The notes below the pieces were generated by a model that saw only the letters and a list, made by a program, of their open reading frames with translations, did not search any database and was not told where the DNA came from. A DNA stretch of 64,000 bases from Rhodothermaceae bacterium (lineage in GTDB: Bacteria > Bacteroidota > Rhodothermia > Rhodothermales > Bin80), in assembly GCA_009841335.1 (NCBI GenBank), contig VXLY01000079.1, positions 1 through 64,000 of the forward strand. The letters run 5' to 3'. Positions 2,972 to 27,865 of the stretch are shown piece by piece. A program made the translations under genes and the position numbers. Position 1 is the first letter of the stretch, and every line of letters starts with the position of its first letter.

Positions 2972-5900
2972 TTAAGTCTTGAACCAGTAATGTTCGCGTT
3001 GGAATGGATAACTGGGCAGCGAGATTCGACTCCTCTTTTCTCCGGCAAACAGTCCTGAAAAATTCAGTTTGAGACCTGCCTCATACAACCTTGCAACGGA
3101 TTGGGAAAAACTACTCCCCATAGATCCGTCAGTCGAACCATTTCGTGGTCTTTTGAAGCTTGCCAATACAATCGGCACCTGTACACCATTCGTAGTCTGC
3201 TGTGCGACCTTTGGCCAGTCTGAAAGAATCTTTGACTTCAAGAGCATGTCAGGACCAACTTCCACTACAGCAGTTACTCCCATTTTCGCAATCGTCGCAA
3301 CACATTTGCCAAGTGCCGCGGGTGAACGCGTCTGCCTAGTCCAATACGCTGCATCCATAGATAACTCGGGGCTTACCTGTAGGCCAGTCGAACCACTCAC
3401 CATCTGGGTGGACGGTGGTGCGAAGGATACCTCTTCCAGGATGGCTTGAGCATTCCCGTTTTCGAGATATCCATCCATCAGTTCAGTACACCGCGCCGCA
3501 AGGACCAGTCCATCCTCAAGCTTCAAAACACCGGCTGCATACGCAGCTGCTAGCTCCCCCGTACTAATCCCAACGACCACATCTGGAGAAACCCCGACAC
3601 TCTCCCATAGCGCAACCTGGGCGCATTGGAGGGCAAAAACGGCTGGGGACCGCCATACCTCCGAGTCCGAAAGATTATTTGAACGACCAAACATCACATC
3701 CAGTAGGGAGCCTCCGAATTCTCCTTGAAGTAGCTCATCACACCGATCCAGGACTGCACGCACGACTGGCTCGCTACGATACAATTCTTCTCCCATTTCA
3801 AGTCCTAGGGTCTCCTCCGCATTGAAGACGAATGCTACCTTTGGAGCTATTTCAGGCACTGGTAATCTTCCATTCGTGCTAGCGACGCTCATCAGTCCAT
3901 TCCGCAGTGACTGTTCATCATCATAAGTAATGCCGGCACGATGAGATAAGTGACTCCTTCCCACTGCTGCCGTCCAGGCCATATCTGATAGCAATGCGTC
4001 CGAGTTCTTTTCGGGCGGCTTTTTGAAATGCTCATCCAACCAGGAAAGGTATCCTCCCGCCAACGCTTGTAGTGCCTCGTTTGATTTCGCAGATAGGGGC
4101 AGAACCCTCATGCGCCGCTGATCTTCATCTACAGGATCTGGTAGGTTTACTCCCATCTTCAGATCGGGAACAGCAATATATTCTGGCGAACCTATAGGAA
4201 CACAAAGTCCCGAATCGCCCGGTACACTGTAACCCTCAACCACAACGTGGGCGTTCGCCCCTGAAATTGCAAAAGCACTGACTCCCGCCCGCGGTGGCCG
4301 GTCAGCTCGGCTTGGCCAGTCTATTTTCTCCGATGTGACTTTAACCGGCAATTGATCCCACTCCACATGCGGGTTCGGCTCCTCAAAATGCAAATGCTTC
4401 GGGATCACTCTCCGCTCCATTGCTAACAACACTTTAATGAGACCCGCAACTCCCGCCGCTGACTCAAGATGCCCAATATTGGTCTTTGCCGTTCCAAGCA
4501 AAAGCGGGCGATCTGCTTCACGATCCCTACCATATACGGAAGCAACTGAGTTCACTTCAATCGGATCTCCCAATTGGGAACCAGTTCCATGTGCTTCCAG
4601 AAAGTCAACCTCAGAAGGCGGAATACCAGCCCGACGAAGCGCATCTTCCAGCACCTGCTTCTGTGCCTGACCGCTCGGTACCGTAAGCGATGCACTCGGA
4701 CCATTTTGATTCAATGCAGAACCACGGATCACACCCCATATTCGATCCCCATCGGACACGGCATCACTTAGTCGCTTAAGAATTACAACGCCGCAGCCCT
4801 CTCCCCGAACGAAACCATCTGCACTTGCATCAAATGTCCGGCAATTTCCGCTTGACGATAGCATGCCGTACTCCGCCATAAACCTATTGATCGCAGGAGA
4901 AAGAACCACATGGACACCTCCCGTCAGAGCAAGATCCACATCTCCAGATTTGAGATCGGAAGCTGCCTGATGAATTGCAGCCAAAGAAGATGCGCAGGTC
5001 ATATCCACCGCCACAGCTGGTCCCATCAGCCCCAACAGAAAAGCGACACGTCCGATAGCGACACTTCCTGCAGTGCCGAGATAGTTGTACTCCTGATCGC
5101 TTCCCGAAATTAAATCACGGTATTCACTGGCTGCCATGCCAATATACGTTCCCGTTCGGCTGTGCCTGAGGGAATCGGGATCCATTGCAGCATCTTCAAG
5201 GGCCTGCCAACTGGTCTCCAGGAGCATACGTTGCCTCGGATCCATGCCGCGGGCCTCAATCGGACGGATATTGAAGAATCCTGCATCAAACTGATCCAAC
5301 CCGTCCAGAAATGATCCCAGTCTCAGGATAGGATCGTCAGCAGCAGGATCCCCCGCTACCCCCTCCCATGGACCAGAATCAGGGCGTCCATCCGAAACGG
5401 TATTGCCCCCGGATTCAAGCAATTCCCAAAATGCCTCAATGTCCGGTGCGCCAGGAAAACGACACGCCATTCCGATCACTGCAATGCCGTCCTCCTCGTT
5501 CCGCACAACTGGTTGTTGTTGTGTAACGAGCTGCAGCGGGGCGGGAGCAGGACCGAGTGATCCTAATTCATCGGCCAAGTGCTCCGCCAGCATGTTGATG
5601 TCCGGATAGTCAAATACCACTGTATTTGATGCAACATACTCGTCAGCAAATGCGCGATTAAGCCGATTCCGTAGTTCAACGGCCATCAATGAATCCATCC
5701 CTAAGTCGAAAAATCCCACAGTAGACGAGGGAGCACTCGGCAAGCGCAAGACTGCTTGTAACTCTTGCTGGAGGAAGGATATGAGCAGATCCTTGTGTTC
5801 CGCTGCCGGCATTCTGCGCAACTGGGATATGGGATCTTCCAGGAAGACTGTCGTATCGGCTTCTTCCTCAGATGTGTCTTGAAGCAAATCACCCAGTATA

Positions 5901-8900
5901 GCAGGCCGATCCTCACTAGCCTTCTGAAAAACTTCCCAGTCCATCGCCATGACCACAGAATGCGTTACATCTGCACGTACCAGTTTATCAAGCGCCTTGA
6001 TACCCTGCTGTGGAGTGAACCAGCGGCCACCAAGTGCAGCCCTCCGTTCCTCAATACTCTCCTTTCGTTCCGCAGCTTCGCCAATTTCCGACCAGGCCCC
6101 CCAGGCAATTGCCTGACCTGGAAGTCCAATCGCACGCCGATGCGCAGCAAGCTGATCCAAGAATGCATTCGCAGTCGCGTGATTTGCCTGTCCCGGATTC
6201 CCCATGACCCCTACGCGACTTGAAAAAAGAACAAACAAATCCAGATCACAATCTGCAGTAGCACGATGCAAATGCCATGCACCTACTACTTTGGGCCATA
6301 ATACCTGCTCAAACCTATCCCACGTCTGATTTCCTAGTGCACCATCTGATAATACACCTACACTATGGATTACTCCGGCAAGGGGCGGCAATTCCTCCCG
6401 TATATCCGCAAGCATTTTGTCCACCGCGTCGAGATCCGTCACATCTGCAAGAGCTACTCGCACGGTAACGCCACGCGCTTGCAATGAATCAACTACCTCC
6501 TGTGCCTCCCCTTCCGGTGGGCGCCGCCCGTTCAGCACGATGGCGCCTGCTCCATGATCCGCCAACCAATTTGCGACAGCAAGCCCAATTCCTCCCAGAC
6601 CGCCAGTAACCAAATATGTTCGATCCCCTCTTAACTGCCCCCTAACCAGGGCTGATGTCGTGACTACAATCTTGCCAAGGTGGCGGGCGGACCGCATGAA
6701 CTGCAGAGCAGCACTTGCTTCGGCCAGCGGCCATCTGCTATGACGAATGGGCGTTAGACTCCCTTCGCTAAATTGTTTCAGTAAGTTCCTAAGAACCCGG
6801 CCAACCCACTCGGGGTCCGTTTTTTTGAGTACGTCTAGTTCAAGAATGGCGTATTTCACATCTGGGCGTACGGCCGCCATCTCCTCTTCACTCAGAATAT
6901 CCCGTCTTGCTAATTCTACAAATCGACCTCCCTGAACAAGGCATGACAGACTCGCATCAATGAAACCCTCGCTCGTAAGACTATTCAGTACTACATCAAT
7001 TCCCTCACCATCTGTAGCCTCAAGGATTTCTGCTCCGAAAAGTGTATCACGACTATTGAATACATGCTCCACCCCTAACGAACGCAGGTATTTCTGCTTT
7101 GGGGCACTTGCCGTTGCAAAAACTTCGGCCCCTACGGCCTGAGCCAACTGAATGGCTGCCAAACCCACACCACCCGCTCCGGCATGAATCAGCACCCGAT
7201 CACCAGCCTCCAAGCCCGAAAACTCGTATGACAGCGCAGCTGAAACAAAAGCACTCGGCACCGTAGCCATTTCCGATACAGAGAACCCCTCTGGTGCACG
7301 CGCTACAAGTTCTCCATGTGTCACCATCTCCGCTGCGAATGCACCAAACCCCAGCCCAACTACGTGATCACCAACCGAAACAGTTGTCACCTCAGAGCCT
7401 ATCTCCAGTACATCTCCACATACCTCCCTGCCGAGATTTCCCTCTTGAATGAATGCGAGAGAACGAAATACGTCCCAGAAATTAAGACCGGCGGCCTTGA
7501 CTGCGACACGAACCTCTTTCGGCTCCAATCCCCGATGAGACAGCGTCTTGACGTGGATGTTTTCAATTACGCCATCTGGATCTGGGGCAAGCACCCAAGG
7601 AGCGTCATTCGGAAAACTGAGACGTTCCAAGCCAGCATTCTCTCTGGCCAGACGTGCTACGTTTCGTCGTCCGTTACGATAGGCAATATGATTTTCATGG
7701 TCAGGGTTGAGCAGCTCCGTCACCAGATCGGGTTTTGCTGCAGTTTCGGCTGGATCCAAGTCAATCATTCTTGTCTGCAGATGCGTCAATTCCCGGGATA
7801 CACCCTTACCGAATCCCCATAATGCCGCACCAGCTATCTGGCCTGTGAACTCCCTTTCCAGCACTTGGGCACCCCGAGTAATAAACCAGATGCCTTTGTC
7901 CGGTAAGACGTTGGTGTCTATTACTGCCTGTACCAGTACCAGCGCACTCTCCACGATTCGCCTGGTATCCTGCGCCATCTCATCGGTTGAAGCATTTGGA
8001 CCTGCGCCATCAAGTGCGCCAAGATGCACAACTCCCTTCAGCGGCAAATCTTTGGAAACGCTTCGCAGCAACTCTTCCCACGATTCCCGGCAACTAATGT
8101 CGATGGCGACCTGGATCATTCCAGGTTCCTCTGATTCAAGGGCGAGATTCTTGGAGTCTGCTACACCAGCTTCCACGAGTACAACTGTCTGGTTATTGCT
8201 GACCAAGTCTTCTGCAAGACATTGGGCGGTCCCATTGTGATCGGCCACCAGTACCCAAACACCGGTACGCTCCTGTATTTCGGTGGGACCTTGGGCTACG
8301 ATCACCCCCTTGTCGTGTCTTCTGATTGCATCAGTTTCCTCAATTCCCAGGATCTCCACCTCACCAAAACCTGCATCGCTAAGTGCACGCCGCCATACTG
8401 CCGGACTGGCCAAAGCATGGTGAGGACGGTAGTCATCGGCAAACCGCCACCAGCCGTCCAGTTGCCCGAACGTCAGATCCATCCAGCCCTGCCCACTCAG
8501 GTTCTCAAGCGCTACCAATTGACCAGACGGTGCGAGAAGATCCCGACAGTACTCAAGCGTCTCATGAAGATATCGAGTGGCATGTATCACATTGGAGGCA
8601 ATCAGCAAATCGTAGCTGTGCATCTCAAAGCCCTGCGCTACAGGATCATTTTCAATATTTAGCGGGCGGTATTCCATTGGTTTACCCCCAAATCGTGCTT
8701 CCGCCTCCGCAAAGAAGCCCGCCGAAATATCGGTATACATATAATCAAAACGCCCCTCTGGGAGTTCGGGAAGGATGGCGGCAGTGGCAGAGCCTGTGCC
8801 CGCACCAACCTCAATGATCCTCAGGTGGCGCTCGGCTGGCAATTCGCTTACAAGCGCAGATACCGTTTCTTTTAGAATACGGTTTGCCGCTCGAGCCACC

Positions 8901-11900
8901 GGCGCTTTGAGGTACAGATCTCCTGGAGTCGGATCTCCGCTACTGAAAAGCAGTGTCAGTGGATCCTTCTGAGCACGAAGCACTTCGCCCAAGGCAGTTC
9001 CACAACGCCGAAAGAGCCCGACCTCGGTTGTACCGTGAGGAAACCGCTCAGCCATCCCATCTGCAAACTCTTCCAGATCCACCGGCATTTCGTCGGGCAA
9101 TGCATCTCCAGATGCAATCCTGACAACAAAGGAGCCATCTAGCTCCTCCACAATTCCGGACTTGGCCAGCATCTCAAGCATTCGACGAAAGACGCGCTCG
9201 TGATCTGAAATGACCCCCAATCGTTTCCGTAGAACCTCCGATTCTATAATGTCCCCTTGCTTACGCTTCCACCCCAGTTCCTCCAAAGTTGCGAGCGCAC
9301 GCGAGCGAGACCACCGCTCCAGATCATCTAGGAGAGCATTCCTCTCTTCGGGTTGAACCCCTTCTTCGCTCAAATACGCTGACAGAAGCCCAGAACTCGC
9401 CGCAACCGTTCCCGGGGATGGAAGAAAATCTGCCGACAGTACTGCCGGAACTAAAGGACTTTCACGCCAGAGAATTTCGTACAGAAGATCATCAATATCT
9501 TCTACCGCGGAAAGCAACGCTCCCCGGGTCGCACGCTTCACAATATACCCGCTCAATCCACCAATCAGAGTACCATCCGTGTCATAAATGCGCAGTTCGG
9601 CGCTCATTATCTCCGCGGTGGAACCTGATTTTTCTTTTGCCCCCTTTGAGACCTCCTTCATTCTGACATGACAAACCACATTGTTCGGCAGTCGTCCTGA
9701 TAACCAGAGGCGATCCCAGCCAAATGGTAGATAAGTCGTCTCCCCTTCAACTCCGCCCGGGTTACGTGCGGCAGCTACAACCTGGAAACACCCATCCAGA
9801 ATCAGAGGGTGAATGTCCAACTCATTACTTTCAATTGTGTCAGGGAAAGACACTTCCCCTACTGCTTCTCCGGGTTTGTACCAAAATCTCTTGAGTGTGC
9901 GGAAGGAGGATCTTAGGTCAATTCCCGTGTCGGCTCTAGCCTGGTAGTAAGATGAAGCACTTCCAGTAGACATCCCGGCCCTCAGATCTTCCAGATTAAC
10001 CTGGCCACTTTCTTCCGGCATCGCGGTAGCCGAAGACAAGCTGCCCTCCACATGCATCACCCAATCCTCTCCCTCTCCCCGACTGAATATCTGTATGCGT
10101 TGGGGCTTTTCGGCCTCCGCAGGAGCAATAAGAATCTGCATTTCCCGCCCATCATCGTCCTCACTATCACTGGATTTTTGCTCTGGAAACACTAGTGCGT
10201 TATGCAACTGCATATCTTCCACGATCACCAATCCGCTCCCTTCAGTGAGACATGCCGAGGCTGCCATGGCACCATAGAGTGCACCAGGGGCAATGACCCG
10301 GCCGAACACCTGGTGATCTTGCAGCCAATTTGGACTTGATCGGAAGACCTCCGTTTCGTACACCACCTCACCACTCGCAAAATCACGTCGTGAACCCAAC
10401 AGGGGATGATCGCCTGCGCTGAAACCGCGCCTCTTTGACTCTTTGATCCAGTAGTGATCACGCAGGAACGGATAGCCCGGCAACTGAATACGCCGCCGAA
10501 CCTCGCCCGCAAAGAGTCCCTCAAATTGAATGGTCAGACCCGCCTGGTACGCCTGAGCAACGGCCTGTTGAAAATCACTCGTCGCCGCATCCTCCGGCAT
10601 ATCACCGGAGGGCACCTGGAGGCTTGAAATCATGAACGGCGGCGTCTGAGACTCAGGCCAAGCCAGCGCCACCATATTGGTCAGAATCGGACGCGGACCA
10701 ACTTCAATTATTAGATCAACCCCGAGCTCCGAAAGTGTTTGAACACCCAATGCAAACGCGACCGCTTCGCGACCATGCCGCCGCCAATAAGCACCATCAA
10801 GAGTCTGACCGGACCCCACCACTTCCCCTGTTAAATTGCTCACTACTTTCAGCGAAGGAGCCTGGATCGCAATCTCACTCAGAGACGCTTCCAATGTATC
10901 CAAGACCGGCTCCATCATCGCACTGTGAAACGCCTTGGACGTATTCAGACGTTTGACTCGGATACCCTCGGATTCAAAATGTTCGATGATCGACTGGATC
11001 CGGGGGATCGGGCCACTAACAACCTGGTGCGTACCGTTATTCGCCGAAACGCTCAACCCAATACCCGGTGTTGATGCGTTTATCTCCTCAACCGCGGAGG
11101 CTACCTGCGCTGGGGGGGCAAAAACAGCAGCCATGGCACCAGGGTCTGTCTCTGCAAACAGAGCACCTCGTGTGATCGCAAACCGCATCCCGTCTTCTAA
11201 GCTGAATACTCCCGCCGCCTGCGCAGCCGCCAACTCCCCAACACTGTGTCCAATCACCACAGAGGGCTGAATTCCTATACTTGCCCAAAGGGCAGTAAGT
11301 GCACACTCCAACGCGTAAAGAGCTGGCTGCTCCCACGCCGTATTGCTTAAATCACAATCGGTACGTCCAAAAATAGCGTCCAACAGCGAGAGCTTTCGCT
11401 CGGCCTGGAATACTGCTTCGCATCGATCAAACACCGCCCGTGCAACCGGTTCGCATTCATAGATCGCGCGCCCCATACCGGTCCACTGACTTCCCTGTCC
11501 GGTATAAGCGAACGCTATTTTGGTTGCGGCTTGAGGACGGATGTTTTCAGCCGAATCAGCAAGCGCTGTGAGCTTCTGTCTCAGGGATACCTCATCCTGA
11601 AAAACTACGCCGGAGCGATACTCAAAATGACTTCGCCCCATCGCCGCCGTCCACGCCATGTCTGCGAATAATGGCGCTGCTGCGGAGCCATTCAGTGTAA
11701 CTTCTTGCCCGCGCTCATCCAGCCACTGCATATAATTCCCCGCGATTGACTGCAAGGCGGCCGGAGATTTGCCAGATAGGGGAAGTAGTCGTACCTGTCG
11801 CTGCGGAGTAACCTCTCCATCGGACAATGGGGATTCACGCTCCCCTGACGCTGACACAGTCTGGGGTACATTTATTACCCGATTCCGGTCATTTGACGTT

Positions 11901-13222
11901 CCATTCTTGGCAAGGTATTCCTCCAATATGATGTGGGAATTGGTGCCAGATATTCCAAAAGAGTTGATGCCCGCAATACGTGGTCTCCCATTGGCCGCCG
12001 GAAGATCCATCATCTCCGAAGTCACGCGCAGGTTCATCTTATCCCAGTCAACGGCCGGCGTGGGGTTATGAAAATGTAAATGCTTTGGAATGACTCCACG
12101 CTGCAGAACAAGTACAGCTTTGATCAAGCCAGCAATCCCGGCAGCGGATTCAAGATGACCAATATTGGTCTTCACTGATCCCACGAGCAGCGGCCGATCC
12201 GGCGCTCGCCCCTGACCATAAACAGTTGACATTGCTTCGAGCTCAATGGGATCGCCTACGGATGTCCCTGTGCCGTGCGCTTCCACATAATCCACTTCCG
12301 CCGCGGTGACCCCCGCATCCCTGAGTGCCTGGCCCATCACCTGCTCAAGAGCAGGAATGTGCGGAACGGTCATGCCCACACTGTCTCCTCCATGATTTAC
12401 CGCCGAACCCTTAATCACTGCCCAGATTTTATCGCCATCTGCCTCGGCTTCCTGCAGACGCTTCAATACAACAACCCCGCATCCTTCGCCCCGTACATAG
12501 CCATTCGCCGATGCATCAAACACTTTACATTGTCCGTCCGGGGAGAGTATTCCCGCATCAGCACGAATCTTAAATACATGACCACTTAAAATACTCTGTA
12601 CTCCACCAACAATGGCCATATCAGTCTTTCCCCGCTGCAGATCAGATACCGCGTCGTTCACTGCAACCAGAGACGAGGCACATGCAGCATCTATCGCTTT
12701 TGATGGACCCCGAAGACCCAGAAAAAAAGATACGCGCCCATTTGGACCGCTCATACTGGTTCCAGACATCGCGTAGAGACTGGAAGCCGCATCCACAGGC
12801 TTATGATTGGATTCCACAATCCGCATCCTGTACTCATAATTACTGATCCCCGTATATACCCCTGTGAGGCTACCCTTTAGGCCAAGTGGATCTATTCCCG
12901 CGTCTTCAAGGGCCCGCCAGCTGGTTTCCACCATCATGCGTTGCTGTGGATCTAGCCAGTTGGCCTCAACAGGTGAAATCCGAAAGAATTGCGGATCAAA
13001 CTGCTCAATATCATCGAGGTATGAGCAGAAGCGACATGCATCAGGCAGATTTGGGATGTCTGCAAACATCACGTCAATGCGCCTATTTCCCGCCCCTTTC
13101 GGGATATCCATCACAGAATTTTGGCCGGAAACAAGCAAACGCCAATAATCCTGGATACTTGCGGCACCTGGAAACTTGCATGCCATTCCTACAATTGCAA
13201 GGGGAGCTTTGTCCTGATTCAT
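2972..13222 (-). CDS. Type I polyketide/fatty-acid synthase, KS-AT-DH-cMT-ER-KR-ACP-KS-AT(degenerate)
   Basis: A 3416-aa iterative-type megasynthase. KS1: Cys181 in DAACASSL, plus EAHGTGT and KTNIGHLES. AT1: GQGSQ, Ser660 in GHSVG, His766 in SKAFH, which resembles malonyl-specific (HAFH-type) ATs. DH: His970 in DHQVFGRVIAP and Asp1143 in LDGCFQ, both intact. C-methyltransferase: EVGAGTG near 1473. ER: HAGAGGVGLAAIQ near 2015. KR: TGGLGGIG near 2205, FSSRVG, but GQANHATANAF places His2348 where Tyr is usual. ACP: Ser2511 in GMDSLMAVEL. KS2: Cys2743 in TCASSL. The final AT is degenerate (GISTG, Ser3220). The protein stops just after the post-AT motif YPFQREHYW, with no second ACP and no TE. Inferred product: alpha-methyl-branched reduced fatty-acyl chains, released with help from the neighbouring ACP and hydrolase. 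The gene probably has its own promoter region, since 610 bp separate it from the upstream hydrolase. Confidence 0.95.
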   Translation of the reverse strand: MNQDKAPLAIVGMACKFPGAASIQDYWRLLVSGQNSVMDIPKGAGNRRIDVMFADIPNLPDACRFCSYLDDIEQFDPQFFRISPVEANWLDPQQRMMVETSWRALEDAGIDPLGLKGSLTGVYTGISNYEYRMRIVESNHKPVDAASSLYAMSGTSMSGPNGRVSFFLGLRGPSKAIDAACASSLVAVNDAVSDLQRGKTDMAIVGGVQSILSGHVFKIRADAGILSPDGQCKVFDASANGYVRGEGCGVVVLKRLQEAEADGDKIWAVIKGSAVNHGGDSVGMTVPHIPALEQVMGQALRDAGVTAAEVDYVEAHGTGTSVGDPIELEAMSTVYGQGRAPDRPLLVGSVKTNIGHLESAAGIAGLIKAVLVLQRGVIPKHLHFHNPTPAVDWDKMNLRVTSEMMDLPAANGRPRIAGINSFGISGTNSHIILEEYLAKNGTSNDRNRVINVPQTVSASGERESPLSDGEVTPQRQVRLLPLSGKSPAALQSIAGNYMQWLDERGQEVTLNGSAAAPLFADMAWTAAMGRSHFEYRSGVVFQDEVSLRQKLTALADSAENIRPQAATKIAFAYTGQGSQWTGMGRAIYECEPVARAVFDRCEAVFQAERKLSLLDAIFGRTDCDLSNTAWEQPALYALECALTALWASIGIQPSVVIGHSVGELAAAQAAGVFSLEDGMRFAITRGALFAETDPGAMAAVFAPPAQVASAVEEINASTPGIGLSVSANNGTHQVVSGPIPRIQSIIEHFESEGIRVKRLNTSKAFHSAMMEPVLDTLEASLSEIAIQAPSLKVVSNLTGEVVGSGQTLDGAYWRRHGREAVAFALGVQTLSELGVDLIIEVGPRPILTNMVALAWPESQTPPFMISSLQVPSGDMPEDAATSDFQQAVAQAYQAGLTIQFEGLFAGEVRRRIQLPGYPFLRDHYWIKESKRRGFSAGDHPLLGSRRDFASGEVVYETEVFRSSPNWLQDHQVFGRVIAPGALYGAMAASACLTEGSGLVIVEDMQLHNALVFPEQKSSDSEDDDGREMQILIAPAEAEKPQRIQIFSRGEGEDWVMHVEGSLSSATAMPEESGQVNLEDLRAGMSTGSASSYYQARADTGIDLRSSFRTLKRFWYKPGEAVGEVSFPDTIESNELDIHPLILDGCFQVVAAARNPGGVEGETTYLPFGWDRLWLSGRLPNNVVCHVRMKEVSKGAKEKSGSTAEIMSAELRIYDTDGTLIGGLSGYIVKRATRGALLSAVEDIDDLLYEILWRESPLVPAVLSADFLPSPGTVAASSGLLSAYLSEEGVQPEERNALLDDLERWSRSRALATLEELGWKRKQGDIIESEVLRKRLGVISDHERVFRRMLEMLAKSGIVEELDGSFVVRIASGDALPDEMPVDLEEFADGMAERFPHGTTEVGLFRRCGTALGEVLRAQKDPLTLLFSSGDPTPGDLYLKAPVARAANRILKETVSALVSELPAERHLRIIEVGAGTGSATAAILPELPEGRFDYMYTDISAGFFAEAEARFGGKPMEYRPLNIENDPVAQGFEMHSYDLLIASNVIHATRYLHETLEYCRDLLAPSGQLVALENLSGQGWMDLTFGQLDGWWRFADDYRPHHALASPAVWRRALSDAGFGEVEILGIEETDAIRRHDKGVIVAQGPTEIQERTGVWVLVADHNGTAQCLAEDLVSNNQTVVLVEAGVADSKNLALESEEPGMIQVAIDISCRESWEELLRSVSKDLPLKGVVHLGALDGAGPNASTDEMAQDTRRIVESALVLVQAVIDTNVLPDKGIWFITRGAQVLEREFTGQIAGAALWGFGKGVSRELTHLQTRMIDLDPAETAAKPDLVTELLNPDHENHIAYRNGRRNVARLARENAGLERLSFPNDAPWVLAPDPDGVIENIHVKTLSHRGLEPKEVRVAVKAAGLNFWDVFRSLAFIQEGNLGREVCGDVLEIGSEVTTVSVGDHVVGLGFGAFAAEMVTHGELVARAPEGFSVSEMATVPSAFVSAALSYEFSGLEAGDRVLIHAGAGGVGLAAIQLAQAVGAEVFATASAPKQKYLRSLGVEHVFNSRDTLFGAEILEATDGEGIDVVLNSLTSEGFIDASLSCLVQGGRFVELARRDILSEEEMAAVRPDVKYAILELDVLKKTDPEWVGRVLRNLLKQFSEGSLTPIRHSRWPLAEASAALQFMRSARHLGKIVVTTSALVRGQLRGDRTYLVTGGLGGIGLAVANWLADHGAGAIVLNGRRPPEGEAQEVVDSLQARGVTVRVALADVTDLDAVDKMLADIREELPPLAGVIHSVGVLSDGALGNQTWDRFEQVLWPKVVGAWHLHRATADCDLDLFVLFSSRVGVMGNPGQANHATANAFLDQLAAHRRAIGLPGQAIAWGAWSEIGEAAERKESIEERRAALGGRWFTPQQGIKALDKLVRADVTHSVVMAMDWEVFQKASEDRPAILGDLLQDTSEEEADTTVFLEDPISQLRRMPAAEHKDLLISFLQQELQAVLRLPSAPSSTVGFFDLGMDSLMAVELRNRLNRAFADEYVASNTVVFDYPDINMLAEHLADELGSLGPAPAPLQLVTQQQPVVRNEEDGIAVIGMACRFPGAPDIEAFWELLESGGNTVSDGRPDSGPWEGVAGDPAADDPILRLGSFLDGLDQFDAGFFNIRPIEARGMDPRQRMLLETSWQALEDAAMDPDSLRHSRTGTYIGMAASEYRDLISGSDQEYNYLGTAGSVAIGRVAFLLGLMGPAVAVDMTCASSLAAIHQAASDLKSGDVDLALTGGVHVVLSPAINRFMAEYGMLSSSGNCRTFDASADGFVRGEGCGVVILKRLSDAVSDGDRIWGVIRGSALNQNGPSASLTVPSGQAQKQVLEDALRRAGIPPSEVDFLEAHGTGSQLGDPIEVNSVASVYGRDREADRPLLLGTAKTNIGHLESAAGVAGLIKVLLAMERRVIPKHLHFEEPNPHVEWDQLPVKVTSEKIDWPSRADRPPRAGVSAFAISGANAHVVVEGYSVPGDSGLCVPIGSPEYIAVPDLKMGVNLPDPVDEDQRRMRVLPLSAKSNEALQALAGGYLSWLDEHFKKPPEKNSDALLSDMAWTAAVGRSHLSHRAGITYDDEQSLRNGLMSVASTNGRLPVPEIAPKVAFVFNAEETLGLEMGEELYRSEPVVRAVLDRCDELLQGEFGGSLLDVMFGRSNNLSDSEVWRSPAVFALQCAQVALWESVGVSPDVVVGISTGELAAAYAAGVLKLEDGLVLAARCTELMDGYLENGNAQAILEEVSFAPPSTQMVSGSTGLQVSPELSMDAAYWTRQTRSPAALGKCVATIAKMGVTAVVEVGPDMLLKSKILSDWPKVAQQTTNGVQVPIVLASFKRPRNGSTDGSMGSSFSQSVARLYEAGLKLNFSGLFAGEKRSRISLPSYPFQREHYWFKT

Positions 13223-21542: not shown

Positions 21543-22208
21543 ATGGCATTGCGTAAATCCCCCAAGGCCGATCTGAAAAGGACATATGGTTTCTTCGTAC
21601 AGGTTGGCATGATCGCTTCACTCCTTCTGCTGATTCTGGCATTCAATGCAAATCTGGATAGCGGAGATGCTATGGAGATTGAGCAGATTGAGCAGGAGGT
21701 CGTCCAGATGGAAGAGATTTTGCAGACTGAGCAAATCCAAAAACCACCTCCACCACCACGTCCACCGGTGCCCGTAGAGGTTCCAAACGATGAGGTCCTT
21801 GATGATGATGACTTGGATCTTGATTCCTTTCTAGACTTGGATGCTCCGATCAACATACCTCCTCCGCCACCACCGCCAGACGAGGAAGTGATCGAGGAAG
21901 AGCCAGAATTCTTCGAAATTGTTGAAGATGACCCGGTACTGATTGGTGGTATCGCCGGACTCCAAGCCAAAGCGAAGTATCCAGAGATCGCTCGTAAGGC
22001 CAATGTTGAAGGCCGCGTTATTGTTCAGTTTATCGTAGACGAGAATGGCAATGTGCGTGAGCCCACGATCCTTCGTGGCATTGGTGGTGGATGCGATCAG
22101 GAGGCTATTAGACTCATCATGGAAGAGGCTGAGTTTATTCCCGGGCGTCAGCGCGGGCGTGCCGTACCGGTGAGGACGTCCCTCCCAATCGTATTCAAGT
22201 TGCGTTGA
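21543..22208 (+). CDS. TonB-family energy transducer, single C-terminal domain
   Basis: 221 aa with classic TonB order: a short cytoplasmic N terminus, one transmembrane helix (about 18-38), an acidic and proline-rich periplasmic spacer (PPPPPRPPVP, then PPPPPPP), and a TonB_C domain (about 135-221) with YPEIARKANVEGRVIVQFIVDENG and GRAVPVRTSLPIVFKLR. It should transmit proton-motive force to outer-membrane receptors with ExbB/ExbD, neither of which is in the window. Its C-terminal domain is very close in sequence to the three domains of the 24995 gene, indicating local duplication. Confidence 0.9.
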   Translation: MALRKSPKADLKRTYGFFVQVGMIASLLLLILAFNANLDSGDAMEIEQIEQEVVQMEEILQTEQIQKPPPPPRPPVPVEVPNDEVLDDDDLDLDSFLDLDAPINIPPPPPPPDEEVIEEEPEFFEIVEDDPVLIGGIAGLQAKAKYPEIARKANVEGRVIVQFIVDENGNVREPTILRGIGGGCDQEAIRLIMEEAEFIPGRQRGRAVPVRTSLPIVFKLR

Positions 22209-22858
22209 TTTCGTGACCTTATGACATAAGGGTTGAGTGTTGAGTGTCGCGTGTCTTGGCATTCATTCCAGGTCCATTTAGTAAGCTTTGCCGGAGGTCG
22301 ATAACTTGGCCTTAGGATGCAGGGGGTCTTCGCTCCAACGTAGGAGTGAGGGCCCCTTATGATGTTGAGACCGTTCGGTGGGGGGCAAGTCCAGCGTGCC
22401 TTGATCCACATATGCGAGCCTACTCTGGGACGTGGTACGGGAACTGGATCGGAAATGGAAACATGGCTAAGAAGGAACCGATTTGCGGTCCAAGCCTGTT
22501 GTGCTTCAACAAACACGCAAATAGAAACTGAATGCCAGCGGAGACAGTAGGTAAACTTCCCGTGGTGAGAGCGAGGGGGATTAATGGTGCGGTGATTGCC
22601 TGGCCAGCCTAGAACGCGGACAGAAATTAGCAGGTGCGTTTGCTACTAGTTCTGTGAGAGAGAATGCAACATCTTACGCGGATGAATCCAGAATTAACAG
22701 CAGCAGCCGCTCACACACAATAACGTCAGTCGCAGCCGAAAAAAGGTGCGAGGTACCGTAAATACCAACAGCTCCCAGCGCTTGTGGCGTTGTTCAAGCG
22801 TTTCGAGAACTGTACATGGCACCACGCTAGTCCGCTGATTGATTAGAACTCTTGAAAC
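22209..22858. other. Intergenic region with a possible decayed intron-like RNA
   Basis: 650 bp without a credible gene; overlapping short ORFs on both strands lack protein features. The middle part (about 22330-22600) is G-rich and structured-looking, with phrases such as GGGGGGCAAGTCC and GGAAATGGAAACATGGCTAAG that resemble the 5' domain of bacterial group II introns. No reverse-transcriptase ORF accompanies it. See findings. Confidence 0.4.
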
Positions 22859-24286: not shown

Positions 24287-24994
24287 GGGTAAATCATGAA
24301 TACTTGTAGGCTAAACTCCTGGAAAATGGCTCCACCAACATCAAGCCACTAAAAATTACTCTAGAAAGTTAAATGGCATGTCCTATGTAGGGTGGGACGT
24401 AATATCCTTTTTCTAATCCAATTTTGGTAACCTTTTTGTAATTGCGTCGGTTATTCAGTATGAGTTCCCTGGACGCTGCGCCAAATCGATAACATTCAAC
24501 CCATACCTTGGCCGTATCAGGAAAGATGGCCACGAACGGTTTTAATTTCTCAGAGAAATTACTCCGCAGTGCCGGTGCCGGAGAGTGCAAAAAACTAAGT
24601 GTAAGCTTTTCATTTTACGCAGTCATAAAGGGAATATGATGCCGAGGCCAAAATACAGAATGTATTTTTACTGGGTCAGAGCAGATCGCGGATGATTGGA
24701 ACCGTTTGCAGGTGCGTTTTCCAGAACATGGTTCCTTGTTTGGGGTTTGGCAGGAACAAAGATGGTCAGTAGGGAGATAATGGTGCAGTCAACATCTGTG
24801 AAACGACTGCAGTTCAGCAGGAAATAATCCCTGGCACGATAATTGTTTGACTGTGGTTGGCGGGAGCCGAATATGCTGTACTCGTCAACTGAATGTGAGC
24901 ATCACAAACCGATTCCTTAACTACACAGTATCAGGTATTACCAGTCTGCGGCATTTGCTGTAAACCCTCTTCACTAACCCGGACCCAACCTAAC
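24287..24994. other. Intergenic region with a gene remnant
   Basis: 708 bp between the oxidoreductase start and the triple-TonB gene. It carries the minus-strand remnant at 24369-24620; the rest (24621-24994) shows no ORF, repeat or RNA that I recognise. Confidence 0.5.
24369..24620 (-). pseudogene. Possible gene fragment without start codon
   Basis: The frame is open from just after a TAA upstream and would read KLTLSFLHSPAPALRSNF through to GYYVPPYIGHAI, but no ATG is near its beginning; the ORF track uses a TTG at 24590. The composition is protein-like (clustered aromatic and basic residues, KVWVECYRFG), yet no family was recognised. It may be the tail of a lost gene or a chance ORF. Confidence 0.25.
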
Positions 24995-26134
24995 ATGGCA
25001 TCACGAGAATCCTCCATAGACGACCTACCAAGCAACCGCCCATTCTCTGTACAAATAGGTCTGATAGTCGCACTCCTCCTTGTTTCATCCATTCTACTGA
25101 TTTCGAGGTGGGATTCGGAATCAGGAAACGACTCGGAAGTCTATGAAATCGTCGAAGAAATGCCAGAGCTGATTGGCGGCCTTAGTGGACTCCAAGCAAA
25201 GGTGACATACCCGGAGATCGCCCGAAAGGCCAACGTTGAAGGCCGCGTCATTGTGCAGTTCATCGTGGATAAAAACGGCAGTGTCCGTGACGCTAAGATC
25301 CTTCGTAGAGTCGGTGCCGGACTTGACGAAGAAGCTTCCAGAGTCATCATGGAGGAGGCGAAATTTATTCCTGGACGCCAAGACGGTAAACCCGTGGCGG
25401 TGAGACTATCCATTCCAATCGTATTTAAATTGCGCAATGAGTTTGAGTCCCTATCCGATCAATCAAAGTCCCCAGAGAACCAGGATGTTTATGAAATCGT
25501 CGAAGAAAATCCGAGGCTGATTGGCGGCGTTCGTGGACTCCAAGCCAAGGTTAAGTACCCGGAAATCGCCCGAAAGGCCCATGTTGAAGGCCGTGTCATT
25601 GTGCAGTTAGTCGTGGATGAAAATGGAAATGGCCGTGATGCCGAGATCCTTCGTGGAGCTGGTGCCGGACTCGACGAAGAGGCTATCAGAGTCATCTATG
25701 AACACGCGGAATTTACTCCCGGACGCCAAGACGGTAAACCTGTAGCAGTAAGAGTCTCTATTCCGATCGTATTTAAATTGGACAACGAGTTAGAGTCCCT
25801 CTCCGATCAATCACAATCATCAGAGAAGCAGGATGTTTATGAAATCGTCGAGCAAATGCCAGAGTTGATTGGTGGCATTGGTGCGCTCCAAGCCAAGGTG
25901 AAGTACCCTGAGATCGCCCAAAAGGCCCACGTTGAAGGCCGTGTCGTTGTGCAGTTCATCGTTGATGAAAATGGCGATGTCCGTGACGCCGAGGTCGTTC
26001 GTGGAGCTGGTGCCGGACTCGACGAAGAGGCTACCAGAGTCATCATGGAGGAGGCGAAATTTATTCCTGGACACCAAAGCGGTCGCGCCGTACCGACGAA
26101 GACATCCCTCCCGATCGTATTTAAGTTGCGCTGA
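24995..26134 (+). CDS. Membrane-anchored protein with three tandem TonB C-terminal domains
   Basis: 379 aa. After a short N terminus and one transmembrane helix (about 17-39) the chain contains three TonB_C domains starting with VYEIVE at residues 49, 165 and 281, an exact 116-residue period that includes near-identical linkers (ESLSDQSKSPENQD, ESLSDQSQSSEKQD). Each domain has YPEIA-K-VEGRV-VQ and GLDEEA blocks. Unlike ordinary TonB it has no proline-rich spacer; the extra domains may take over that distance-bridging role or allow several receptors to be contacted. The third domain ends in GRAVPTKTSLPIVFKLR, like the single-domain gene upstream, while domains 1 and 2 share GKPVAVR-SIPIVFKL. 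Whether it is an active transducer is unknown. Confidence 0.88.
   Translation: MASRESSIDDLPSNRPFSVQIGLIVALLLVSSILLISRWDSESGNDSEVYEIVEEMPELIGGLSGLQAKVTYPEIARKANVEGRVIVQFIVDKNGSVRDAKILRRVGAGLDEEASRVIMEEAKFIPGRQDGKPVAVRLSIPIVFKLRNEFESLSDQSKSPENQDVYEIVEENPRLIGGVRGLQAKVKYPEIARKAHVEGRVIVQLVVDENGNGRDAEILRGAGAGLDEEAIRVIYEHAEFTPGRQDGKPVAVRVSIPIVFKLDNELESLSDQSQSSEKQDVYEIVEQMPELIGGIGALQAKVKYPEIAQKAHVEGRVVVQFIVDENGDVRDAEVVRGAGAGLDEEATRVIMEEAKFIPGHQSGRAVPTKTSLPIVFKLR
25139..26131 (+). repeat. Three 348-bp tandem intragenic repeats
   Basis: Units start at 25139, 25487 and 25835, each encoding one TonB_C domain plus linker (the last lacks the linker). Spacing is exactly 348 bp, and identical runs between units are visible, for example CGAAAGGCC followed by GTTGAAGGCCG. 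This indicates recent in-frame tandem duplication. Confidence 0.85.
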
Positions 26135-26307
26135 TTTACGCTGACCTTCAAAAAGATGCCCCACAGTTTCACCGAAATGCCGGGGCCCTTGTTCTGTAGA
26201 GTGACCAAGTTTTCGGTCAGGGGAAAGTGTTTGAGTGCCAACCCGTTCTGCTACTCAAACTTGACTTGCGGGAGTTGTATGCTTTGCTTGGGCGTAATTT
26301 ACGGTTT

Positions 26308-26329
26308 TGAGACGCGATAAGGCGTCTCA
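26308..26329. repeat. Perfect 8-bp inverted repeat
   Basis: TGAGACGC-gataag-GCGTCTCA, a perfect stem with a 6-nt loop about 175 bp downstream of the triple-TonB gene. No T-run follows, so it is a weak terminator candidate. Confidence 0.4.
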
Positions 26330-27083
26330 GGCCTCGGTTGGACCTCGCTGGCATTTATGCTATCAAACTGGCACGGGCTACCGAAAACGACGATCATAGC
26401 GGACGTGGGCTCGGATTCTGCTGACGATGAGGACCGCTGACTTTGATTAAGGGCGGGTGAGGATATTGATGCCGATGACTACCCCTATCTGAGGCCGCAA
26501 TTTGTTACAGAGACGCATCCCAGTCCGTCCGCGAAAGGCGAGATTCATCGACTGGTCGTGACATCGAAGAGTAAGCTTGCGGTCACCTCATTTGTCTTTG
26601 AGATGCCCTGACAGCAAACCTGAATGGAGCGTCCACGATTGTGTTTGCCCTTCCCATATCGATATACCGATTGGGCCTTTAAACACGCTCCGCTTGAAGG
26701 ATTCGATGGTATGACCACGTGGAAAATGGGACCCCTCCAGCCAACACTCATCGTCCAGGATCCAGCCAGCGCATGTACGCGCGCCCTTCTAGCGAATTCC
26801 AATCCCGACTTACTAGTGTCTTTTGTCCAACGCCACTTACGTTTTTCGTCAGCGACACTTCACACTTCATTGAAGCTGAGCGCCTGAGTACTCATGCAAT
26901 CAGTGAACTTCCATTCATATATCTGTGAGGAGAAACGACTTCAGACCGGCAAGTCAGACTCATTTGACGATTGATGAAACACGAAAGTAAGGCAGTGGAG
27001 CAGACTCAGTAATGTGAACGATGCCAGCTTTACCAGAAATAATTCTGGAATTTATTACTTGAATTTCGGTTATTTTGCCAAAG

Positions 27084-27122
27084 TATAACAAAAATGTTAC
27101 AAAAACGTTACAATAACATTAC
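27084..27122 (+). promoter_or_regulatory. Four helically phased 11-bp-spaced repeats upstream of the TonB-domain lipoprotein
   Basis: TATAAC (27084), TGTTAC (27095), CGTTAC (27106) and CATTAC (27117) recur at exactly 11-bp intervals with A-rich spacers, ending about 57 bp before the start codon at 27179. One-turn phasing is typical of cooperative activator sites. Confidence 0.5.
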
Positions 27123-27178
27123 TGATGGTGTTGAACTTGTAACTTGCCCATCAAGTGTGGGCCTAAACGGAGTATGCT

Positions 27179-27865
27179 ATGGCAAAAATCGTCGCACTAG
27201 TCTGTGTTTTGATCAGCCTCAATGCTGCCGCATGCACAAGTTCTCAAACTGCCCTAAATAACACTTCCTACGCTGACCATATAGGTATCATTGATCTCCC
27301 CACGTTGGTAAACTCTCCGGCTGGCCCCCTGCAGCATGCTGCTTACAATGGAGCCGACAACAAAAAAGTTTTCGTGTCCTTCCTGGTAGACGAAACAGGA
27401 CAGATTGTGAATCCCATCGCAGTGCATCACACGGATGATGTCATAACGCAAAAAGCCGTTAGAGCACTTGAGCACGTACGCTTTGAACCCGGTCGCATTG
27501 GATTACAGCCAATCAGTGTCGAGATGACTATGCCTGTCTCCTTCCGTGGGCAGAACAATGCACCAGATCTGTATGACTTCCTGGACCAGGTCCCCATCTT
27601 ACTCGGAAGCATGGAATCTCTTGTTAAGGAAATTCAGTACCCCGACCGTGCGCGTCGAGCTAATCTCGAGGGACGTGTCACAGTGGCCTTCATTGTTGAC
27701 GTGAATGGAGCTGTCCGCCGCCCCACCGTTACGCAAAGCCTCGGGGCAGGCTGTGACGAAGAGGCGCTGCGGGCCATTCAACTCGCACGCTTTGCACCGG
27801 GCCGGTTGGACGGTGTTCCTGTCAATGTAGTAACCTCCCTGACCTTCGTATTTACGCTGATCTGA
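27179..27865 (+). CDS. Lipoprotein with two TonB C-terminal-like domains
   Basis: 228 aa. The signal KIVALVCVLISLNAAAC ends in a lipobox cysteine, so the protein is lipid-anchored and not tethered by a TonB-type transmembrane helix. A first, divergent TonB_C-like domain (about 60-122; KKVFVSFLVDETGQIVNPIAV, RFEPGRIG) is followed by a better-conserved one (about 138-228; YPDRARRANLEGRVTVAFIVDVNG, GAGCDEEALRAIQLARFAPGR). Lacking the ExbB/ExbD-interacting helix, it cannot be a conventional energy transducer; it may bind receptors or peptidoglycan. It is the third TonB-domain gene in 6.3 kb and convergent with rpiA. Confidence 0.82.
   Translation: MAKIVALVCVLISLNAAACTSSQTALNNTSYADHIGIIDLPTLVNSPAGPLQHAAYNGADNKKVFVSFLVDETGQIVNPIAVHHTDDVITQKAVRALEHVRFEPGRIGLQPISVEMTMPVSFRGQNNAPDLYDFLDQVPILLGSMESLVKEIQYPDRARRANLEGRVTVAFIVDVNGAVRRPTVTQSLGAGCDEEALRAIQLARFAPGRLDGVPVNVVTSLTFVFTLI

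Follow-up and report, generated by a model that had tools for sequence, protein, structure and literature searches.

A single-helix protein with three tandem TonB C-terminal domains encoded near tonB in a Rhodothermaceae genome

The window, a 64,000-nucleotide stretch of a Rhodothermaceae genome, contains a gene whose product combines one membrane helix with three TonB C-terminal domains (CTDs) in series. TonB, a protein of nutrient uptake, is usually viewed as a single arm that is driven by a motor and carries one domain for receptor binding. Tandem TonB CTDs are already known in kind; what is new here is the combination of one helix and three domains without a spacer. Such a paralogue, conserved but with three domains of the receptor-binding type and no evident segment for coupling, is an experiment of nature that sets the parts of TonB needed for force against those needed for binding.

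Domain architecture and predicted structure

Pfam TonB_C (PF03544) matches the 379-aa protein three times, with a whole-protein E-value of 8.8e-63 (209 bits, cut-off 24.6) and per-unit scores of 76.8, 73.3 and 71.9 bits, all above the curated cut-off of 24.6 (Table 1). The sequence-only reading had proposed three such domains from VYEIVE motifs at residues 49, 165 and 281; the ORF translation has the motif at exactly these positions, 116 residues apart, and the three Pfam matches bear out the domains themselves. In the DNA, Tandem Repeats Finder gives a period of 348 nt, or 116 codons (score 1357, 83% matches), with copies starting in register at 25135, 25483 and 25831. By the repeat finder these copies are 82–83% identical, and a fourth, at 71%, lies at 21905 and corresponds to the ordinary tonB's own CTD. 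The sole hydrophobic helix (residues 18–36) aligns with canonical TonB anchors, as expected from the single TonB-like anchor read earlier, and is followed by twelve proline-free residues before unit 1. A proline-rich spacer is absent (4.7% proline overall), again as had been read, while the neighboring tonB has one. A lipoprotein reading was rejected because the sequence holds no cysteine anywhere and hence no lipobox. The M56 peptidase domain (PF05569) gave no Pfam match in the protein.

Table 1. Features of the three-unit gene and of the neighboring TonB_C genes in the window
Feature	Coordinates	Strand	Basis
Ordinary tonB, 221 aa: anchor, probable motor box, Pro-rich spacer, one CTD	21543..22208	+	ORF list, Pfam, unit tree, anchor alignment
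Three-TonB_C protein ORF, ATG start, 379 aa, no cysteine	24995..26134	+	ORF list, Pfam (three matches), sister-species orthologue, purifying selection
Signal-anchor/TM helix, residues 18–36, diverged TonB-type	25046..25102	+	AlphaFold helix (low pLDDT), hydropathy 2.57, ungapped alignment to canonical TonB anchors
TonB_C unit 1, residues 49–147, N-type beta3	25139..25435	+	Pfam, unit comparison, AlphaFold
Linker 1, NEFESLSDQSKSPENQD, low-pLDDT core 150–162	25436..25486	+	AlphaFold, sequence
TonB_C unit 2, residues 165–263, N-type beta3	25487..25783	+	Pfam, unit comparison, AlphaFold
Linker 2, NELESLSDQSQSSEKQD, low-pLDDT core 266–278	25784..25834	+	AlphaFold, sequence
TonB_C unit 3, residues 281–379, C-type beta3 like ordinary tonB	25835..26131	+	Pfam, unit comparison, AlphaFold
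Lipoprotein-like satellite, one degenerate and one full TonB_C	27179..27865	+	Pfam, synteny in several congeners

The AlphaFold model of the whole protein, built from a 21-row alignment, shows the helix at low confidence. It is followed by three units of beta-beta-alpha-beta topology, for the most part at pLDDT >90, which are joined by disordered linkers at residues 150–162 and 266–278. The model's pTM of 0.37 indicates that the units have no fixed mutual arrangement. A separate model of units 2–3 agrees with the full-length one; the best Foldseek match of this model is the TonB chain 6i97_D (TM-score by target 0.80), and the PDB entries that match it best are likewise TonB CTDs, several of them receptor-bound (6i97, 9dc4, 2gsk, 2grx). 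A profile search of PDB sequences returns the same TonB CTD family. Structure prediction, named earlier as a check, gives each TonB CTD its own confidently predicted fold, with flexible linkers in between. Every unit retains 34–37 of the 39 columns conserved in the canonical CTDs of the class.

Origin of the gene and exchange between its units

The window genome (G000) is a draft assembly of 121 contigs, and the three-unit gene might in principle be a single TonB domain multiplied by an error of assembly or annotation. However, the family search returned an intact three-unit orthologue in the congener G009 (contig JAPPGC010000097.1, 87% identity over residues 1–379), a Bacteroidota MAG that was assembled separately and independently shows the same three units. 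The genes flanking this orthologue are collinear with the window, in the same order and at about 95% DNA identity. The units themselves differ by 18–21% in DNA, and at 79–82% identity they are too divergent for a simple collapse or expansion; moreover, two-unit orthologues exist in further congeners. The assembly artefact was rejected on the sister-species gene and the divergent units: an artefactual origin of the triple repeat appears very unlikely, with hardly any probability left to it.

The ordinary tonB is the paralogue closest to the source of the three-unit gene. A tree was built of 51 TonB_C units from the family; it has few columns and leaves many forks open. In it, all units of the three-unit gene and of its two-unit orthologues form one clade (support 98/91). 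Its neighbors are two single-domain satellites of G001, followed by the subclade's own canonical tonB. Units group by position, last with last and N-terminal with N-terminal. The G003 orthologue has two units in 265 aa, that of G001 (bin80, Rhodothermaceae) has two units and an in-frame TAA between anchor and domains, and several congeners are without any orthologue. Judged from these comparisons, the three-unit gene is a satellite paralogue of the adjoining tonB, descended from a TonB CTD. The simplest history would lead from one unit to two in the ancestor of G000, G009, G003 and G001, and then to three in G000 and G009 through copying of an N-type unit. No relic TonB_C copies were found in the gaps 22209–22858, 24287–24994 and 26135–27178. 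A scan for sigma-70-type promoters gave matches not above those in shuffled sequence and is uninformative for this bacterial group. Elsewhere in the window, a single 3416-aa ORF (2972–13222) reads from its sequence as a type I polyketide synthase.

The units also exchange sequence within the gene by intragenic conversion. In the 200–250 nt block of the units, unit 1 of G000 pairs with its own unit 3 (92%) and unit 1 of G009 with its own unit 2 (96%). Owing to this exchange, the divergence between the two genes peaks at 20% in 25245–25494, with about 5% on either side. Over the last hundred bases of the units, beta3 included, N-type and C-type sequences remain clearly distinct, at mostly 57–75%, the exception being the converted block in unit 1 of G000.

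Between G000 and G009 the three-unit gene differs at 112 of 1140 nt and 50 aa, the ordinary tonB at 8 of 666 nt. When the same substitutions were placed at random (5000 trials), 74 aa changes were expected under neutrality and the simulated minimum was 59. The dN/dS ratio is 0.31 for the whole three-unit gene and 0.10 for the tonB CTD. These values indicate that the gene is under purifying selection between the two genomes, less constrained and faster-evolving than tonB. They also bear on the view that it is a drifting paralogue of little function, heading for loss at a duplication-prone locus. Downstream of tonB in G005 (L052, 4671–7665), several lipoprotein-like genes of ~130 aa, each with a single TonB_C, stand in a row, which marks the locus as prone to duplication. 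Drift would fit the rate (112/1140 against 8/666 nt), the intragenic conversion, the missing orthologues in several congeners and the G001 stop after the anchor, which implies that some relatives can do without the gene. However, the aa changes fall below all 5000 neutral simulations, dN/dS is 0.31, and reading frame and units are intact in two species, so that drift toward loss seems unlikely.

Anchor, missing motor segment and proposed function

The anchor aligns without gaps with 19 canonical anchors (DL....F.VQ.G.I..LLL) and reads VQIGLI, including the Q of the V-Q-x-G motif. Canonical anchors have an invariant Q/E at this position; the window protein retains it, but G003 has I and G001 has K there instead. 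The SHLS motif is absent, as it is from the canonical TonBs of the same clade. After the anchor, the canonical TonBs of the class align on a near-invariant QEVVQMEEI..QT.QI.KPPPPPRPPVPVEVP; aligned with them, the three-TonB_C protein has no segment of the EQEVVQMEEI..KPPPPP type. From its position and conservation, the EQEVVQMEEI segment is probably the motor box, a strand predicted to follow the TM helix that is reported for all TonBs and thought to activate the motor/force cycle (PMC12204202). Because motor box, domain II and a single CTD were each tested for and none was found, the protein should not be classed among the canonical TonB energy transducers.

What the protein does instead can be proposed with moderate confidence. 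It would sit in the inner membrane, with its three TonB CTDs tethered on the periplasmic side. Within TonB, beta3 is the strand with which the TonB box pairs (PMC3602595), and each CTD could take up a TonB box or similar beta-strand peptide on its beta3 edge, making the chain a multivalent binder. Lacking the motor box, the chain would not be powered by ExbB-ExbD and would most likely buffer, scaffold or compete for TonB clients rather than energize transport. The window genome encodes one strong ExbB and two ExbD on contig C9 and has 41 Plug matches, so that motor and clients exist and there is a TonB economy to modulate. Satellites in congeners are often lipoproteins from which the TonB anchor is entirely absent, which speaks for this reading. 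The retained VQIGLI motif, which could dock to ExbB, and the broken, evidently dispensable gene of G001 count against it. We give about an even chance to the protein being a motor-uncoupled, TonB-derived multivalent display of CTDs that modulates or competes for TonB clients.

The sequence-only reading had suggested that the extra domains might bridge the periplasm, bind several receptors or act on ordinary TonB as a competitor or regulator. Bridging as a fixed ruler has lost ground: unit number is two or three among orthologues and one in the nearest paralogues, and this variation led us to disfavor it. Binding of several receptors or a competitor role is favored, since the units keep nearly all conserved CTD residues and the probable motor-coupling segment is missing.

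Alternatively, the protein may be a motor-coupled variant of TonB, in which the anchor docks to ExbB-ExbD, units 1–2 and the linkers serve as spacer and unit 3 reaches outer-membrane receptors. The VQ.G.I anchor core present in both three-unit species and the beta3 of unit 3, the most canonical of the three, would suit this arrangement, and by our own estimate the stretched chain reaches near 20 nm, which could cross a periplasm of 100–200 Å (PMC3602595). However, the motor box is missing (PMC12204202), the anchor Q is gone in the two-unit orthologues, two or three units give no constant length, and units 1 and 2 retain nearly all conserved CTD residues, beyond what a spacer needs. Motor coupling is thus doubtful. 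Returning to the uncoupled display, a broader and tentative proposal is that the window protein and its lipoprotein cousins constitute a motor-free TonB-domain family that arose repeatedly from tonB. Such a family might modulate TonB-dependent uptake through occupancy of TonB boxes or of TonB, with repeat number and beta3 type (units 1–2 N-type, the last C-type) setting strength and client choice.

Tandem TonB_C domains in related genomes and known systems

The three-unit gene points to a wider, uncharacterized set of TonB_C satellites beside tonB in this class. The lipoprotein-like satellite of the window, which precedes rpiA, is also found near tonB in G009, G003, G005, G002 and G008, and is frame-broken in G001. 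Two-domain, spacer-less TonB_C proteins with a lipobox-like Cys lie near tonB in G010 and G013. One G001 satellite (L051, 2222–2758) has a TonB-like anchor ending in LILAC, which suggests a TonB anchor turning into a lipoprotein signal. On contig C105 of the window genome, two adjacent paralogues (L045, 397–1815 and 1969–3303) each comprise a signal peptide, ~330 residues that match no Pfam family, and a TonB_C at the C-terminus; ORFs resembling them occur in G001, G003 and G009.

Surveys of the class and the phylum scored the best candidates per genome. Among the class matches listed are two-domain TonB_C proteins in G239, G242, G173 and G175 and M56-type fusions with two TonB_C (three in G207); M56 was confirmed by Pfam in L077, L080 and L083, the other fusions being read by eye. 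L077 (412–2829) joins an M56 (BlaR1-type) peptidase to three TonB_C and is a possible sensor of the TonB box or of envelope state. Further strong matches in the phylum sample are ORFs of ~620–680 aa, likewise with two TonB_C. The domain-architecture search that had been called for earlier found one helix with three TonB_C only in G000 and G009 among the matches listed. As stated earlier, an ordinary TonB carries a single domain of this kind, but in the class two or more in series recur, including a three-domain M56 fusion. By these matches, tandem TonB_C is recurrent in related genera, both as lipoproteins and as M56/BlaR1 fusions.

A search of a literature library turned up no relevant paper on TonB C-terminal domains in tandem or in multiple copies. 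TonB proteins that carry a pair of such domains in series were reportedly noted by Chu, Peacock and Vogel in Biometals in 2007. With these the window protein would share the tandem CTDs, but it has three units and no proline spacer. With the canonical Bacteroidota-type TonB encoded at 21543–22208 it shares a diverged TonB-type anchor, the PF03544 CTD and the gene neighborhood; in contrast, it has no motor-box-like strand or Pro-rich domain II, and three CTDs rather than one. The M56 (BlaR1-type) fusions L077 (three TonB_C), L080 and L083 (two each) likewise carry two or three TonB_C in series, but have a multi-helix M56 peptidase module where the window protein has a single helix. The satellite TonB_C lipoproteins (e.g. 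L052, L059 and that at 27179 in the window) are equally spacer-less and TonB-derived, with one or two domains; however, they have a lipobox-like Cys, whereas the window protein has no Cys and an anchor that looks uncleaved.
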